From: Natrialbaceae archaeon Tc-Br11_E2g14
Lineage (GTDB): Archaea; Halobacteriota; Halobacteria; Halobacteriales; Natrialbaceae
NCBI GenBank assembly: GCA_001564275.1
Contig: LKND01000026.1
Span: 1 to 35,861, forward strand
Reading direction: 5' to 3'
DNA: 35,861 nt
A program made the position numbers and the translations under genes. Shown here in pieces: positions 16,077-23,645 of this stretch (positions are counted from its first letter, which is position 1; every line of letters starts with the position of its first letter). The notes under the pieces were generated by a model, which saw only the letters and a program-made list of their open reading frames with translations, ran no database searches and had not been told where the DNA came from.

Positions 16077-17018
16077 ATGAGCATGTCCTCGAGCGTTGGC
16101 CGCGTCGGCCACCGCCTTCGCTCCAGCGCGGGCCACGGCGCGTCCCGCGTCCGGACCCCGGCGTTTTACCTGCTGACCGCCGGCTTCGTCGCGTTCTTGT
16201 TGTTCGCCCTTCGCGAGGCGATGGCGATGACCGGGACGGCCTGGGGGGCGGCCTACGCGTTCCCGGACCACCGGGTCCACCACGTCGTGATCGGGGCCAC
16301 CCTCACGGCGTTCGTCGCGTCGGTGGCCGTCCAACTCTACCGGCCGACCAGGCGGGTGGGCGCGATGCAGCTCGCGATCGTGTTCGTCGTCGCCGCGTTC
16401 TCCCTCACCGCCGCCGCGTCGGGTATCGTGGCCGCGAGCGAACTGCTGGTGTTCGCCGTGCCCGTCCTGGTGATCGCCCTATTGCACCCGGCTCGAGCGG
16501 CCCTGATTCCGTCCCTTGAGTCCCTCGACCGACCGCTGTTCGCCGTCGCCGGCATCGGCGCGCTGGGACTCGGGACGCTCGCCACGATCGAGTACACAAA
16601 CCACGTGACGCTCGCCGACGCCCACGTCGCCATGGGTCACTACGAGTTCATGCTCTTCGGGCTGGTATCGATCGCCGGCTTCGCCCTGCTGAGCGCGTTC
16701 AGACCCGCTGGGTGGCGCTGGCTCGTCTACGCCGCCGCAGCGCTGGCGACCCTGTTCGTCGCCGTTTCGATCGCCTTCCCCGGAGCCGAGCAGGGCTCGA
16801 GTCTGGGCACGATTCCGGCCATCGCCATGCTCGTGTGGGCCGTTGGCCTGGTCGGCATGGCGGAGTACCGCGTGCGTGGCGGGGCGGCCTCCGCGGACGC
16901 GACCGGGGACGGAGTCGAGCCGGTGACGGACGACGATGCGGATGAGGAGGTGGGTCACGATCCCGACCGCTCGGGGGTCGTCGGTGAATCCGTCGATGCC
17001 TCGGAGTCGCGTCACTGA
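16077..17018 (+). CDS. Eight-TM membrane protein of unknown function
   Basis: Protein of 313 aa that I cannot assign to a named family. After a basic N-terminus (RVGHRLRSSAGHGASRVR) there are about eight hydrophobic segments, at roughly 29-46, 68-88, 98-119, 122-137, 155-172, 189-206, 214-234 and 245-262. A ~45-residue acidic cytoplasmic tail follows. Histidines cluster at membrane edges (HRVHHV at 65-70; HVTLADAHVAMGHYE at 176-190), which could bind a metal or heme, but this is speculative. The start at 16077 is chosen because the upstream frame, open to 15951, encodes a non-membrane, non-acidic peptide. It is followed by the beta-propeller gene after about 100 bases. Confidence 0.75.
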   Translation: MSMSSSVGRVGHRLRSSAGHGASRVRTPAFYLLTAGFVAFLLFALREAMAMTGTAWGAAYAFPDHRVHHVVIGATLTAFVASVAVQLYRPTRRVGAMQLAIVFVVAAFSLTAAASGIVAASELLVFAVPVLVIALLHPARAALIPSLESLDRPLFAVAGIGALGLGTLATIEYTNHVTLADAHVAMGHYEFMLFGLVSIAGFALLSAFRPAGWRWLVYAAAALATLFVAVSIAFPGAEQGSSLGTIPAIAMLVWAVGLVGMAEYRVRGGAASADATGDGVEPVTDDDADEEVGHDPDRSGVVGESVDASESRH

Positions 17019-17115
17019 TCGGCTGTTCACCGTCTCCCATCCAATCCTTGCCGTCTCTCCCGAACAGGTTGCCGCCTATCGGGGCTTTTCACCACTCGAG
17101 CGTGTGGACCCACGC

Positions 17116-18030
17116 ATGGCAGCCCAGTTACTCGTCCTGAACAAGGACTCTGACACGATGTCCGTCATCGACGCCGACACCGGCGAGACCGACACCGTCG
17201 TCGAGACGGATTTCAATCCCCACGAGATTACCGTCACACCGGACGGCGGGAAGGCCTACGTTACCTGCTCGCTCGGCAACTCGCTGCTGGTCTTCGACAC
17301 CGACTCCTGGGAACTCGTAGAGCGCATCGAACACGAGGACTTCGACTTTCCCCACGGACTCGCAATCCGTGAGGACGCGGGCGAGCTCTGGCTCGCCTCG
17401 ACGTACAGCTCTCGAGTGTACGTCATCGATATCGCAACCGACGAGATCCTCGAGCACTTCCCGACCCACCAGGACAAATCCCACATGGTGGCGATCACGC
17501 CCGACGAGGAGCGAGCCTTCGTCGCCAACATCGGTAGCGAGAGCGTGACAGCGATCGACTGTGACGAACGCCGCATCGTCGGCGATCCACTCGTCGGTGA
17601 GGAACCCGAGGGGATCGCGATCCACCCCGAAGCCGGGGTCCTCGTGGCGAATCAGGACGACAACCTCCTCTCCGTGCTCGATCCCGAGACGCTCGAGCAG
17701 ACGGGACGCGCCCTGCTCGGGGAGAATCCGATTCGTGTGGTCTCCTCGCCGGACGGTCGTCACGTGTTGGTCCCGAACCGCGAGGGCAACGACGTCTCCT
17801 TGATCGACACCCAACACGTCCGTGACGGCGAGCAGCGAGCCTGGGAGATCGCTCGCATCCCCGTGGGCATCTGGCCCGGCGGCACCGTCTTTGACGACCA
17901 CGGCGACCGGGCATTCGTCGCAAACAACAAAACCAACGACGTGAGTGTGATCGACTGTGCGACGTGGTCGGAACTCGAGCGCTACGATACCGAACTGCAT
18001 CCGGACGGGATCGCGTACCTGGCGCGATAA
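17116..18030 (+). CDS. YVTN-type beta-propeller protein, cytosolic
   Basis: Protein of 304 aa built of about seven repeats of the YVTN/40-residue-propeller type. Recurrent motifs are NKDSDTMSVIDADTGE, GKAYVTCSLGNSLLVFDTDS, RAFVANIGSESVTAIDCDE, GVLVANQDDNLLSVLDPET, HVLVPNREGNDVSLIDT and RAFVANNKTNDVSVIDCATW. No signal peptide or TM segment is visible with the ATG at 17116 (MAAQLLVLNKDSD), so it probably acts in the cytoplasm, unlike most surface YVTN proteins. The in-frame upstream region to 16936 overlaps the preceding gene and is not propeller-like. The binding partner or reaction is unknown. Confidence 0.8.
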   Translation: MAAQLLVLNKDSDTMSVIDADTGETDTVVETDFNPHEITVTPDGGKAYVTCSLGNSLLVFDTDSWELVERIEHEDFDFPHGLAIREDAGELWLASTYSSRVYVIDIATDEILEHFPTHQDKSHMVAITPDEERAFVANIGSESVTAIDCDERRIVGDPLVGEEPEGIAIHPEAGVLVANQDDNLLSVLDPETLEQTGRALLGENPIRVVSSPDGRHVLVPNREGNDVSLIDTQHVRDGEQRAWEIARIPVGIWPGGTVFDDHGDRAFVANNKTNDVSVIDCATWSELERYDTELHPDGIAYLAR

Positions 18031-19463: not shown

Positions 19464-19470
19464 TTTATTA
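19464..19470 (+). promoter_or_regulatory. TATA-box promoter of the His-rich lipoprotein gene
   Basis: TTTATTA lies about 53 bases before the ATG at 19523, so transcription should start near 19493-19495. The preceding 430 bases (19031-19460) contain no gene I can support. Confidence 0.55.
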
Positions 19471-19479
19471 AGATCGTCA

Positions 19480-19493
19480 GGTTCATTAGTAAC
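19480..19493 (+). promoter_or_regulatory. Possible operator over the transcription start of the lipoprotein gene
   Basis: GGTTCATTAGTAAC sits at the expected transcription start. It shares a GGTT-(C)-ATTA core with the inverted-repeat arm (GGTTATTA) at the downstream binding-protein promoter, suggesting a common metal-responsive repressor. This is inference from two sites only. Confidence 0.35.
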
Positions 19494-19522: not shown

Positions 19523-20173
19523 ATGAGATTCGACGAATCCATCCGTTCGCGCCGTTCGTTTCTGACCGCGTCCGCCACGGCGGGCGTCCTGGCCGTTGCC
19601 GGCTGTCTCGGTGACGACGACGAAGGGGCGGGTGACGATCACGACGACGATCACGAGGACGACCACGACCACGACGACGACCACGACGACGACCACGATC
19701 ACGACCACGACGACGATCACGATCACGACGACGAAGTCGAGGACGAGGAATTCGATCACCTCGGGATCGACGAATTTGCCGTCCTCGATCGTGCACACGA
19801 CCCACACGAGGAAGTCGCCTACATTCACGGGGACCACTGGCATGGCGATCTGCCGCCAATCGAGGTCGACGACAACATCTCACTCGGTGCGGAGGTTATC
19901 GACGAAGACGGCGACGAGGTCGAACTCGGTGACGAATACGAACTCGGCGTCGCGCTGGCCCCGGACGAACCGGAGGACGTCGTCTCGTTCGATTACCACG
20001 GCGATCACGTCCACATCATCGGTGAGGACGTCGGCGTCGTCGAGGTCGTCTTCCAGATCTGGCATGGCGACCACGCGGATTACCAGTCGCCGACGATCAC
20101 CGCTCAGGTAGTCGAGGATGCAGACGATCACGACCACGACGACGACCACCACGACGACAACGACGACTACTGA
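19523..20173 (+). CDS. Histidine-triad, His/Asp-rich Tat lipoprotein (probable zinc-binding)
   Basis: Secreted lipoprotein of 216 aa. The N-terminus has a Tat motif, SRRSFLTA (residues 9-16), and a lipobox, VAGC, with lipidated Cys28. Residues 31-76 are nearly pure Asp/His/Glu, and a second His/Asp tail fills 199-216. Between them is a folded domain (about 80-198) with two HxxHxH triads, HGDHWH (102-107) and HGDHVH (159-164), plus HGDHAD (181-186). HxxHxH is the zinc-binding motif of streptococcal Pht proteins. The same domain, about one-third identical by eye, is inserted in the metal-binding protein encoded next. I infer a surface zinc scavenger or chaperone handing metal to that protein. 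It has its own promoter and lies 193 bp upstream of the ABC operon. Confidence 0.8.
   Translation: MRFDESIRSRRSFLTASATAGVLAVAGCLGDDDEGAGDDHDDDHEDDHDHDDDHDDDHDHDHDDDHDHDDEVEDEEFDHLGIDEFAVLDRAHDPHEEVAYIHGDHWHGDLPPIEVDDNISLGAEVIDEDGDEVELGDEYELGVALAPDEPEDVVSFDYHGDHVHIIGEDVGVVEVVFQIWHGDHADYQSPTITAQVVEDADDHDHDDDHHDDNDDY
19633..19746 (+). repeat. Low-complexity His/Asp codon tract
   Basis: Runs of GAC, GAT and CAC codons encode the Asp/His-rich linker of the lipoprotein; a shorter tract of the same kind lies at 20118-20170. The irregular mix of CAC with GAC/GAT codons shows a protein-level repeat, not a CRISPR or a DNA satellite. Confidence 0.8.
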
Positions 20174-20304
20174 GCTGTCGAAAACCACCCCAGAAGGTTC
20201 CGCTGACGCTCTTCCAGTTTTCACTGCTTGGAACAATCACCCTCGAGGAGCAGTCGAATAGTCGGACTCCAGTTCCCCGAGCAGCCGGAGCTACTTGTGG
20301 CGAT

Positions 20305-20336
20305 GGTTATTAACACAGTCTTTAAAAATAATAACC
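20305..20336. promoter_or_regulatory. Inverted-repeat operator bracketing the TATA box of the metal uptake operon
   Basis: GGTTATTA (20305-20312) and TAATAACC (20329-20336) form a perfect 8-bp inverted repeat with a 16-bp spacer. The TATA element TTTAAAAA (20321-20328) lies inside the spacer, directly against the right arm. A repressor bound here would block TBP/TFB, so metal-dependent repression (Zur-, DtxR- or MarR/AdcR-like) is the natural reading. No regulator gene of that type is in the window. Confidence 0.6.
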
Positions 20337-20366
20337 CTTTTACCGATGAGTGCCCAATTCTGTCCC

Positions 20367-21779
20367 ATGAAACCGACACGCAGGGCTGCCATTCGAGGGA
20401 TCGGAGCGGCCGGTATCGCCGCACTCGCCGGGTGTCTGAGCGAACCCGGTGACGACGCTGGGGACCCTGACGACTCGAGTGCCACTGGCGGTCTCGACGA
20501 GATGGATGGCTACGCCGCGTTCTTCACGCTCTGGGACTGGGCCAACCAGATTACCGGCGAGGCCGTCTTCGAGAATCCCGTCGACACGGGGGAGATGGGA
20601 CACGGCTGGACACCGGACGGTGACCTGACCCGCGACGTCGCCTCGACCGACGTCTTCGTCTACCTGAACACGCCCGAGTTCGCCTGGGCCCAGGATCTCG
20701 CGAGCGAACTCGAGAGCGAGGGCGACCTCGACGTCGCCATCGTCGACGGCCTGGCTGAGTTCACCGAGGACCAACTCCTGTCGTTTTCGGACGAGGACAT
20801 CCCCGAGCCCGATTACGACCACGACTTCGATCCCGACGAGCTCTCCGTCGAGGGGTTCGACGTCATCGACCCGACCACGAACGACGTGACGGCCTACTGG
20901 CACGAGGACCACTGGCACGGCGGCCTCCCCGAGATTCCGACCGAAGACTCGGTCACGCTCGAGGCGGTCTTCGAGGCCGATGGCGGCCGTGTGATCCCGC
21001 TGGGTGACGAGCAGGGCTTCGAGTTCCACGCGCGACTCGACGCGGACTTGCCCGAGGTCGTCGAGATCGAATCCCACGGCGATAGCCTCGAGTTGCACGG
21101 ACTCGAGGACGGCCGATCGATCATCACCTTCGAGCTCCGTCACGGCGACGACGTCCTGTGGGACACGAGCGCAGACGGGATGAACGTCGACGTCTCCGAC
21201 GACGTCGATCCAGCCGATGTGACGGAGTTCCACGACCCACACGTCTGGGTCGACCCGGTCCTCGCACAGCAGATGGTCGCCACGATCGCGGACGGACTCA
21301 GCGACGTGTGGCCCGATCACCGCGAGACGTTCGAGGAAAACGCAGACGCCTACAGTCAACGTCTCGATGCCGTCGACGAGGCCTTCGAGGCAGCGGTCGC
21401 CGACGGCGAGTTAGAGGTCGCCGTCTTCGCCGGCCACGACGCGTTCCGGTACGTCGAGCACCGGTACGGGTTCGACCTACACTCGCCCGTGGGCGTCTCA
21501 CCGGACGAATCGCCGAGTGCCGGCGATATTGCCGACACGATCGAACTCGTCAACGAGCACGGCATCGACACGATTCTCTACGATCCGTTCGAGGCCGAGG
21601 AAGGCGAGGTCCCGCCGCTCGCCGAGACCATCGTCGAAGACAGCGACGCGAGCCAGACGGCACCGATGACACCCGCGGAGGCAAGCATGGCCGAGTGGAA
21701 CGAGGACGACTGGGGCTGGGTCGAACAGATGGAAGAGGTTACGATTCCCTCGCTCCGGCAGGCGCTCAAGGCGGATTGA
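20367..21779 (+). CDS. znuA: ZnuA/AdcA-type zinc (or manganese) ABC binding lipoprotein with inserted histidine-triad domain
   Basis: Solute-binding lipoprotein of 470 aa, long for the cluster A-I family (about 300). It has Tat-like RR at residues 5-6 and a lipobox, LAGC (Cys23). The expected metal ligands are His79 (MGHGW), His292 (DPHVWVDP), His357 (FAGHDAF) and Asp406 (ILYDPFE). Residues about 174-276 interrupt the N-terminal lobe just before DPHVW, where many ZnuA proteins have a His-rich loop. This insert is homologous to the domain of the upstream lipoprotein and keeps one triad (HEDHWH, 179-184). The start at 20367 is preferred over 20346, because the TATA box places transcription near 20350. 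It is the first gene of a three-gene ABC operon. Confidence 0.9.
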   Translation: MKPTRRAAIRGIGAAGIAALAGCLSEPGDDAGDPDDSSATGGLDEMDGYAAFFTLWDWANQITGEAVFENPVDTGEMGHGWTPDGDLTRDVASTDVFVYLNTPEFAWAQDLASELESEGDLDVAIVDGLAEFTEDQLLSFSDEDIPEPDYDHDFDPDELSVEGFDVIDPTTNDVTAYWHEDHWHGGLPEIPTEDSVTLEAVFEADGGRVIPLGDEQGFEFHARLDADLPEVVEIESHGDSLELHGLEDGRSIITFELRHGDDVLWDTSADGMNVDVSDDVDPADVTEFHDPHVWVDPVLAQQMVATIADGLSDVWPDHRETFEENADAYSQRLDAVDEAFEAAVADGELEVAVFAGHDAFRYVEHRYGFDLHSPVGVSPDESPSAGDIADTIELVNEHGIDTILYDPFEAEEGEVPPLAETIVEDSDASQTAPMTPAEASMAEWNEDDWGWVEQMEEVTIPSLRQALKAD

Positions 21780-21780
21780 C

Positions 21781-22584
21781 GTGTCCGGTTTTACCCCGAT
21801 GGAAAGTGCAAGAACTAACACCACCGAAAACGGAGGATCGAGCGTGACACCGGCGGTCGACGTGACGGACGTGTCGTTCGCCTACGGCGAGAAGCCAGTC
21901 GTGAGCGACGTCTCCATGACGATCGACCAGGGAGAGTTCCTCGGGCTCATCGGACCGAACGGCTCGGGGAAGACGACGCTCTTGCACCTCATGCTCGGCC
22001 TGCTCGAGCCCGACACCGGGTCGGTCTCGCTGTTCGGCGAGCCAGTCGGTGCGTTCGACGAGGGTGAGCGAATCGGCTACGTCTCCCAGCAGTCGACCAA
22101 CCGTGGCGGGACGATGCCTGTGACGGTGCGAGAGAGCGTAACCATGGGGCGATTCGCCCACGCGGGCCACAGACGGCTGACCAGCGAAGACGACGCGATC
22201 GTCGAGGAGGCCCTCGAGACGGTCGGCATCACCGAGCTCGGGGACCGGTTGATCAACCAGCTCTCGGGCGGACAACGCCAGCGTGCGTACATCGCTCGAG
22301 CGCTGGCGTCCGAAGCCGACCTGCTGGCACTGGACGAGCCGACCGTTGGCGTCGACGCCGAGTCGCGGGACGCCTTTTATCGGCTGCTCGACCGTCTCAA
22401 CGACTCGGGCATCACCATCATTCTGATCGAGCACGACATCGGCGTCGTCACCGACCGCGCCTCCCGCATCGCCTGTATCAACACCGAACTGTACCACCAT
22501 GGCGACACCGAGTCGTTCGTCGAGAGCGACGCCCTCGCCGAGGCCTACGGCGCGACCGGGCAGGTCGTCCACCACGATCACTGA
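21781..22584 (+). CDS. znuC: Zinc/manganese ABC transporter ATP-binding protein
   Basis: ATPase subunit of 267 aa that energises metal uptake. Walker A is GPNGSGKTT (58-66), the ABC signature LSGGQRQR (161-168) and Walker B LLALDEP (181-187) followed by the D-loop (GVDAES). The H-loop is IEHDIG. The C-terminus ends GQVVHHDH, a small His cluster. The gene starts with GTG one base after the binding-protein stop; an ATG at 21799 is an alternative that would remove six residues. The assignment to metal uptake rests on the neighbours; the ATPase alone would not tell the substrate. Confidence 0.92.
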   Translation: MSGFTPMESARTNTTENGGSSVTPAVDVTDVSFAYGEKPVVSDVSMTIDQGEFLGLIGPNGSGKTTLLHLMLGLLEPDTGSVSLFGEPVGAFDEGERIGYVSQQSTNRGGTMPVTVRESVTMGRFAHAGHRRLTSEDDAIVEEALETVGITELGDRLINQLSGGQRQRAYIARALASEADLLALDEPTVGVDAESRDAFYRLLDRLNDSGITIILIEHDIGVVTDRASRIACINTELYHHGDTESFVESDALAEAYGATGQVVHHDH

Positions 22585-22586
22585 CC

Positions 22587-23645
22587 ATGCCGGAACCCAT
22601 CGATTCGACCAATCGAGAGCACGAACACGGCACGGGCGGCGACCGCCGACGACTGCTCGAGCACTGTGGACTCGCTCTCACGGCAGTGATCGCACTCGTC
22701 ATGCTCTCGTTCGTCCTGCTTTACTGGTTGCGGGACAATCCGGCCCTCGCCAACGCCTACAGCCAGTTCATGATCGCCGGCCAGTGGTTCGATTACTACC
22801 TCGGGACGAACGTGTTCCAGTGGGCGTTCATGTGGCAGTCGATGGCGACGGGCGTGTTGATCGGCATCGTCGCCCCGCTCATCGGCACGTTTCTCGTCCA
22901 CCGCGAGATGGCGTTGATCGGTGAGACGCTCGCGCACACGGCCTTCGCGGGAGTCGCCATTGGCTTCGCCGGCGGTGCCGTGATCGGGTGGTCGGGCTCT
23001 CCGCTGTACGCCGCCCTGCTCGTGGGCGTCCTGGGTGCCCTCGGCGTCCAGTGGCTGGCCGAGCGGACGAACACCTACGGGGACGTCCCCATCGCCATCA
23101 TGCTGACGGGGAGTTTCGCCGTTGGGACCCTGATCATCAGCTGGGGTCGTGGACAGCGCGGGATCGATATCGAGGGCTTCCTCTTCGGCGATCTCGCGAT
23201 CGTGACCGCCGGCAGCGCCCGCATGATGGCGGTGTTGAGCGTGGTGGTCGTCGCCGTCGTTATTTACACCTACAAGCAACTCCTGTTCATCACCTTCGAC
23301 GAGCAGGCGGCCCGCGTCGCCCAGTTGAACGTCGACGCCTACAACACCCTGTTGATCGTGATGACCGCAGTCGTGGTGGTGGGATCGATGCAGGTCCTCG
23401 GGGTGATTCTCGTCGCCGGCATGCTCGTGATCCCCGTCGCCGCGGCCTCGCAGGTCGCTCGCGGGTTTCGGGAGACGATGTATCTCTCGATCCTGTTTGG
23501 CCAACTCTCGATCGCGGGCGGATTCGCCCTCGCGATTTCACAGGGGCTGCCATCAGGGGGTTCGATCATCGTCGTCGCCATCGCCATCTACCTCCTGTCG
23601 ATCCTCCTCTCGAGCGGGCGCGTAACGGCGATGTCGATGCACTAG
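22587..23645 (+). CDS. znuB: Zinc/manganese ABC transporter permease (ABC-3 family)
   Basis: Membrane permease of 352 aa with about eight to nine TM helices. The family core is clear: GIVAPLIGTFLVHREMALIG, ETLAHTAFAGVAIGFAGGA, then QVLGVILVAGMLVIPVAAAS near the end. An N-terminal ~30-residue hydrophilic extension (MPEPIDSTNREHEHGTGGDR) contains a few His. It is two bases after the ATPase stop, so the three genes form one transcript. The operon gives uptake of Zn2+ (or Mn2+) across the cytoplasmic membrane. Confidence 0.92.
   Translation: MPEPIDSTNREHEHGTGGDRRRLLEHCGLALTAVIALVMLSFVLLYWLRDNPALANAYSQFMIAGQWFDYYLGTNVFQWAFMWQSMATGVLIGIVAPLIGTFLVHREMALIGETLAHTAFAGVAIGFAGGAVIGWSGSPLYAALLVGVLGALGVQWLAERTNTYGDVPIAIMLTGSFAVGTLIISWGRGQRGIDIEGFLFGDLAIVTAGSARMMAVLSVVVVAVVIYTYKQLLFITFDEQAARVAQLNVDAYNTLLIVMTAVVVVGSMQVLGVILVAGMLVIPVAAASQVARGFRETMYLSILFGQLSIAGGFALAISQGLPSGGSIIVVAIAIYLLSILLSSGRVTAMSMH

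Follow-up and report, generated by a model that had tools for sequence, protein, structure and literature searches.

A candidate metal-binding domain shared by a surface lipoprotein and a ZnuA-like binding protein in a haloarchaeal zinc-importer-like locus

The closest architectural parallel to the locus described here is the actinobacterial anchored-repeat Znu system (TIGR03769/03770/03772; ZnuAECB with ZnuF, ZnuG, and CmrA in Corynebacterium diphtheriae), which is zinc-regulated and in which, as here, a motif or insert of the zinc ABC binding protein recurs, in one to three copies, in proteins anchored at the surface (PMC12445094, PMC6711530). The original prediction for the locus missed this system and drew its parallel with the streptococcal Pht proteins. 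These are described by the PROSITE motif [DEH]-G-hyd-x(12,16)-hyd-hyd-hyd-x-H-x2-H-x-H-hyd-hyd, and hand-over of zinc from PhtD to the binding protein AdcAII has been followed by NMR (PMC3842936). A further precedent is the AztABCD system of Paracoccus and others, in which the accessory protein AztD, a beta-propeller unrelated to the archaeal domain, hands zinc to the binding protein AztC (PMC6689063). Zinc acquisition in archaea has barely been studied; Haloferax volcanii ZnuA1C1B1 is an experimentally studied archaeal zinc ABC importer, and the part of that report considered here mentions no accessory lipoprotein or insert of this kind (PMC8155600). The original prediction knew of no described archaeal system like the present one, which agrees with the literature found by a search of incomplete coverage.

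The window analyzed here is a stretch of 35,861 nucleotides, part of contig C46 in the 3.16-Mb genome of a haloarchaeon, and in it a candidate operator, a surface lipoprotein gene, a second candidate operator, and genes for a ZnuA-like protein, an ATPase, and a permease follow one another from left to right, all on the forward strand. The lipoprotein (216 amino acids; positions 19523 to 20173) has a Tat signal scoring above the NCBIfam cut-off and an AGC lipobox, followed by an Asp/His-rich tract evident in its sequence (19634 to 19735), one domain copy (19736 to 20125), and a C-terminal Asp/His tail. Both of the HxxHxH triads predicted for it were located, HGDHWH at 19826-19843 and HGDHVH at 19997-20014; the third HGDH (20063-20074) and the Asp/His-rich tails flanking the domain on either side had gone unmentioned. 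Homologues of the lipoprotein in relatives carry one to three domain copies each.

The ZnuA-like (cluster A-I) binding lipoprotein (20367 to 21779), for which the ATG at 20367 is a likelier start than the TTG at 20295, matches Pfam ZnuA (PF01297) with an E value of 2.2e-41, passing the cut-off, and the match is split by an inserted second copy of the domain (20847 to 21197). The insert directly precedes DPHVWVDP, at what we take to be the position of the His-rich loop of other zinc binding proteins, and its placement indicates that it replaces that loop. The likely metal ligands (given by first codon base) are His 20601, His 21240, His 21435, and Asp 21582, an H/H/H/D set that fits cluster A-I zinc binding proteins and whose columns are invariant across the main clade; the third ligand is His in zinc-type binding proteins, as opposed to Glu in the Mn/Fe types. 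An AlphaFold model of the protein (pLDDT 85) has a separate beta domain at the insert, and the nearest solved folds (AdcA, YcdH, Lbp, AdcAII, and AztC; best TM about 0.88, normalized by target length) are all zinc binding proteins. One side clade of binding proteins with the domain (loci L057 and L078, and the related L062, L068, L070, L072, L075, and L098) has His-rich linkers and no lipoprotein partner; within it, DPHVW becomes DAKF (L057 and L078) or DVKF (L098).

The importer appears to be completed by the ABC transporter ATPase (21781 to 22584) and an ABC-3 family permease (22587 to 23645). The nearest NCBIfam names for these two and for the binding protein are those of the zinc transporter components AztA, AztB, and AztC, all scoring below the equivalog cut-offs (189 of 220, 146 of 280, and 83 of 350 bits, respectively), and the operon contains no AztD partner. 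A YncE-like beta-propeller gene upstream in the window (16936-18030) is weakly AztD-like and was rejected as a candidate AztD-like chaperone; its AztD score (E 9e-6) lies below those of many other propellers, its place in the neighborhood is not conserved, and the neighborhoods of relatives hold no homologue. The same genome encodes a second zinc-type binding protein with its importer (L081; G000:C36:9184-10239), which does not contain the domain.

The two copies of the domain, which is about 120 residues long, are 37% identical over 108 amino acids (BLASTP E 7e-13), in line with the proposal that the ZnuA-like neighbor carries a homologous domain with one triad, HEDHWH at 20901-20918. A profile built from relatives detects each copy independently (E 1.8e-45 and 3.7e-44), so the match is not explained by low-complexity His tracts. 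The predicted alignment, running from YxHxDHWHGxLPxI through LGDE to HGD twice, stands as to the repeated HGD, but the second HGD of the binding protein falls in SHGDSLEL, with no HxH following. Among 85 aligned copies from relatives, 47 outside and 38 inside binding proteins, the Trp of HxxHW is invariant (85/85) and HxxHW[H/D] near-invariant. Copies inside binding proteins have the first two His in 38 of 38 cases and His at the third position in 32 of 38; when every domain protein is counted, this position holds His in 96 cases and Asp in 27. The second-triad residues H89, H92, and H94 are present in 39, 37, and 30 of the 47 copies outside binding proteins, and the alignment marks this triad as a feature of the lipoprotein only; the binding-protein copy lacks it, so that the two do not form equivalent sites, a point against the relay proposed below.

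AlphaFold models the domain confidently (pLDDT 93.9) as an all-beta, Ig-like fold in which each H-x-x-H-x-H sits on a beta-hairpin. Foldseek searches with this model returned generic Ig-like, S-layer, and Rib folds alone (TM around 0.4 to 0.5), sequence searches found no credible close solved relative, and Pfam and NCBIfam searches with 54 domain copies gave no family that describes it. From these comparisons, we regard the histidine-bearing domain as an undescribed candidate metal-binding domain.

A single-sequence search finds the domain in 33 of 61 relatives; within the order it occurs in 36 of 196 genomes (23 of 66 genera) and, phylum-wide, in 19 of 394 genomes, including one family outside the order. 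Its occurrence mostly away from metal transport genes would have spoken against the original prediction, and the reverse was found among relatives, where 25 of the 33 domain proteins other than binding proteins have a ZnuA-like gene no more than 3 kb away, almost always on the same strand and with the domain protein immediately 5' of it. Other settings are more varied. A Thermoplasmata MAG (L115:9005-10702) has a ZnuA-like protein that is circularly permuted at the His-loop site and carries two C-terminal domain copies, with genes for an ATPase, a permease, and a DtxR-family protein adjoining; Natroniella acetigena has a stand-alone secreted copy near a cobalt/nickel CbiMQO operon; in family f29 (L096 and L097), outside the order, a domain protein extended at its N terminus by a stretch of unknown family lies beside formate dehydrogenase; and a few further domain proteins are orphans. 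Zinc is expected to be scarce in soda lakes, and the named carriers are mostly organisms that we take from their names to inhabit such lakes, a link that comes from His-rich scan patterns with no background comparison and is descriptive only.

The genes for both partners are preceded by the same element, TTATTAA-N15-TARTAAC, which in relatives mostly begins 58 to 60 nt 5' of the ATG. In the window, operator 1 (TTATTAA-N15-TAGTAAC; 19465 to 19493) is an exact match about 58 nt 5' of the lipoprotein ATG, and operator 2 (TTATTAA-N15-TAATAAC; 20307 to 20335) lies 60 nt 5' of the ZnuA-like ATG, adjoining a CTTTTA TATA-like box; shuffles of the window predict no sites. The 3.16-Mb genome has no further exact site. 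A site with two mismatches (C17:2156) precedes a COG0523 zinc-stress GTPase with a GCICC motif, and the remaining sites with one or two mismatches either have no such target or overlap the two exact sites on the opposite strand. With up to two mismatches allowed, the element is present in 23 of 39 lipoprotein and 28 of 48 binding-protein upstream regions of relatives, compared with 0.12% of shuffled sequences. Across relatives, the element is likewise found upstream of COG0523 GTPases, of ZIP transporters, of ZnuA-like genes whether or not they contain the domain, of additional secreted His-domain proteins, and of an FAD oxidoreductase that runs divergently from COG0523; some sites have no recognizable target. 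COG0523 marks zinc-limitation regulons in bacteria, archaeal genomes surveyed earlier were without Zur, and a DtxR-like ZntR has been proposed in Methanosarcina (PMC2770081). The sharing of the element with COG0523, ZIP, and ZnuA genes thus points to a haloarchaeal zinc-limitation regulon, and suggests that the lipoprotein and binding-protein genes, through these putative operators, are turned on together under zinc scarcity.

Several other genes downstream of the element deserve mention. COG0523 GTPases, often divergent from an FAD-dependent oxidoreductase, recur under it (L133, L151, L165, L166, L167, L168, and L174), and the two are a candidate haloarchaeal zinc-limitation pair. In L139 and L141, an exact or near-exact site lies about 30 nt 5' of the start of an NMT1_2-type ABC binding protein, which may belong to a system for the import of zinc chelates or of something else. 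Another undescribed secreted domain (LELLAE..VDHHHACxHA...HVIW.VTY.G..GYVTFDA...GPFVFY), which has no Pfam match, is present in L177 (G021:C23), at L042:12759-13397, and at the N termini of proteins of about 950 amino acids in L042, L047, L063, and L119; in several cases, the element is close upstream of its gene.

We conclude that the locus is probably a high-affinity zinc acquisition module, induced by zinc limitation, in which a surface collector feeds an ABC importer. At low zinc, a repressor, probably of the DtxR family, would leave the operators. From its anchorage on the outer face of the membrane, the lipoprotein would then collect zinc through its two-triad domain and flexible Asp/His tails and, by exchange of ligands, pass it to the binding protein's single-triad copy, from which it would move to the H/H/H/D site, the AztAB-like permease, and the cell. 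The original prediction of a surface-capture relay is supported in part, by the conserved operon-like pairing with a zinc-type importer, by the insert, and by an operator that COG0523 and ZIP genes have in common with this locus; we infer zinc as the metal, its binding by the triads, and its direct hand-over. It is also possible, although we propose it only tentatively, that the Ig-like domain is a zinc relay that passes the metal between its copies, and that it belongs to a Zur-independent TTATTAA-N15-TARTAAC zinc-limitation regulon together with COG0523, ZIP, and secreted His-domain proteins. The locus yields an accessory protein, a domain that is a candidate for metal binding, and a candidate operator through which the response of haloarchaea to zinc limitation can be tested directly.

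The lipoprotein might instead be a surface zinc buffer or store that makes no direct hand-over, with the binding-protein copy acting as an independent second collector. The long Asp/His tails and the variation from one to three domain copies are compatible with storage, and in C. diphtheriae without the importer, ZnuF and ZnuG may serve to sequester zinc (PMC12445094). Against the relay, 18 of the 38 domain-bearing binding proteins have no adjacent lipoprotein, which is therefore dispensable in some lineages. These partnerless proteins, in keeping with storage, tend to have His-rich linkers around the domain (Mann-Whitney p 3e-4, Fisher p 8e-5, both raw), a contrast that recurs within the genus of the window (G002, G006, and G007 versus G000, G001, G003, and G004). 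Compensation for the missing lipoprotein by the linker is suggestive only, because on the tree the pattern amounts to about two independent events and is not significant. Storage alone also leaves unexplained why one homologous domain occupies fixed positions in both partners, and we consider this explanation unlikely.

A role for the Ig-like domain mainly in homotypic docking, with the His/Asp tails and the binding protein's canonical site doing most of the metal binding, seems more improbable still. The Ig-like or S-layer-like fold, the invariant Trp, the occurrence in multiple copies, and the fusion of the domain into surface proteins of about 950 amino acids would all suit such a module, but selective conservation of His at HxxHW[H/D] in both partners argues for a chemical role. 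That the metal is manganese, iron, cobalt, or nickel rather than zinc is the least credible alternative, with manganese its main candidate because the Halobacterium genes zurA, zurM, and ycdH are described as manganese uptake genes under SirR (PMC3600143), and with the Natroniella domain protein adjoining the CbiMQO Co/Ni operon; the nearest folds are nevertheless those of zinc proteins, the operator is common to COG0523 and ZIP genes, and the third ligand is His and not the Glu characteristic of Mn/Fe types.

A zinc collector paired with its importer, as we read the locus, can be set against each of the described systems. The archaeal proteins are anchored by a lipobox, whereas those of the actinobacterial anchored-repeat system, which is Zur-controlled, are held by sortase or the cell wall, and the actinobacterial motif, HxD...HxH, spans about 150 amino acids, unlike the archaeal HxxHW[H/D]. 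Membership of the TIGR03769 family was rejected, with none of the 54 archaeal copies matching it in NCBIfam at E<=10. With Pht/AdcAII, the locus shares HxxHxH motifs on beta-strands and a surface protein gene beside that of a zinc binding protein, and to this extent the predicted Pht parallel stands. Membership of the Pht family does not: the Pht PROSITE motif, its core part included, is found in 0 of 105 domain proteins, Pfam Strep_his_triad (PF04270) does not match the window protein and gives just two weak hits, short of the gathering score, among 54 members (best E 0.0055), and no Pht structure is among the listed fold matches of the domain model. The resemblance is one of functional analogy only. 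As in ZnuA/ZinT and in AdcA, a fusion of ZnuA and ZinT, an accessory and here putative zinc-binding domain accompanies a cluster A-I binding protein, but it lies within the protein, where the His-rich loop would be, and not at the C terminus, and the ZinT domain is absent here; AdcAII itself, to our knowledge, has no triad domain. The archaeal system would thus work like Pht/AdcAII and corynebacterial ZnuF/ZnuG with an unrelated domain, an apparently independent invention of a surface collector and importer that share a domain, comparable to that of the Actinobacteria and of which the streptococci have a simpler form.
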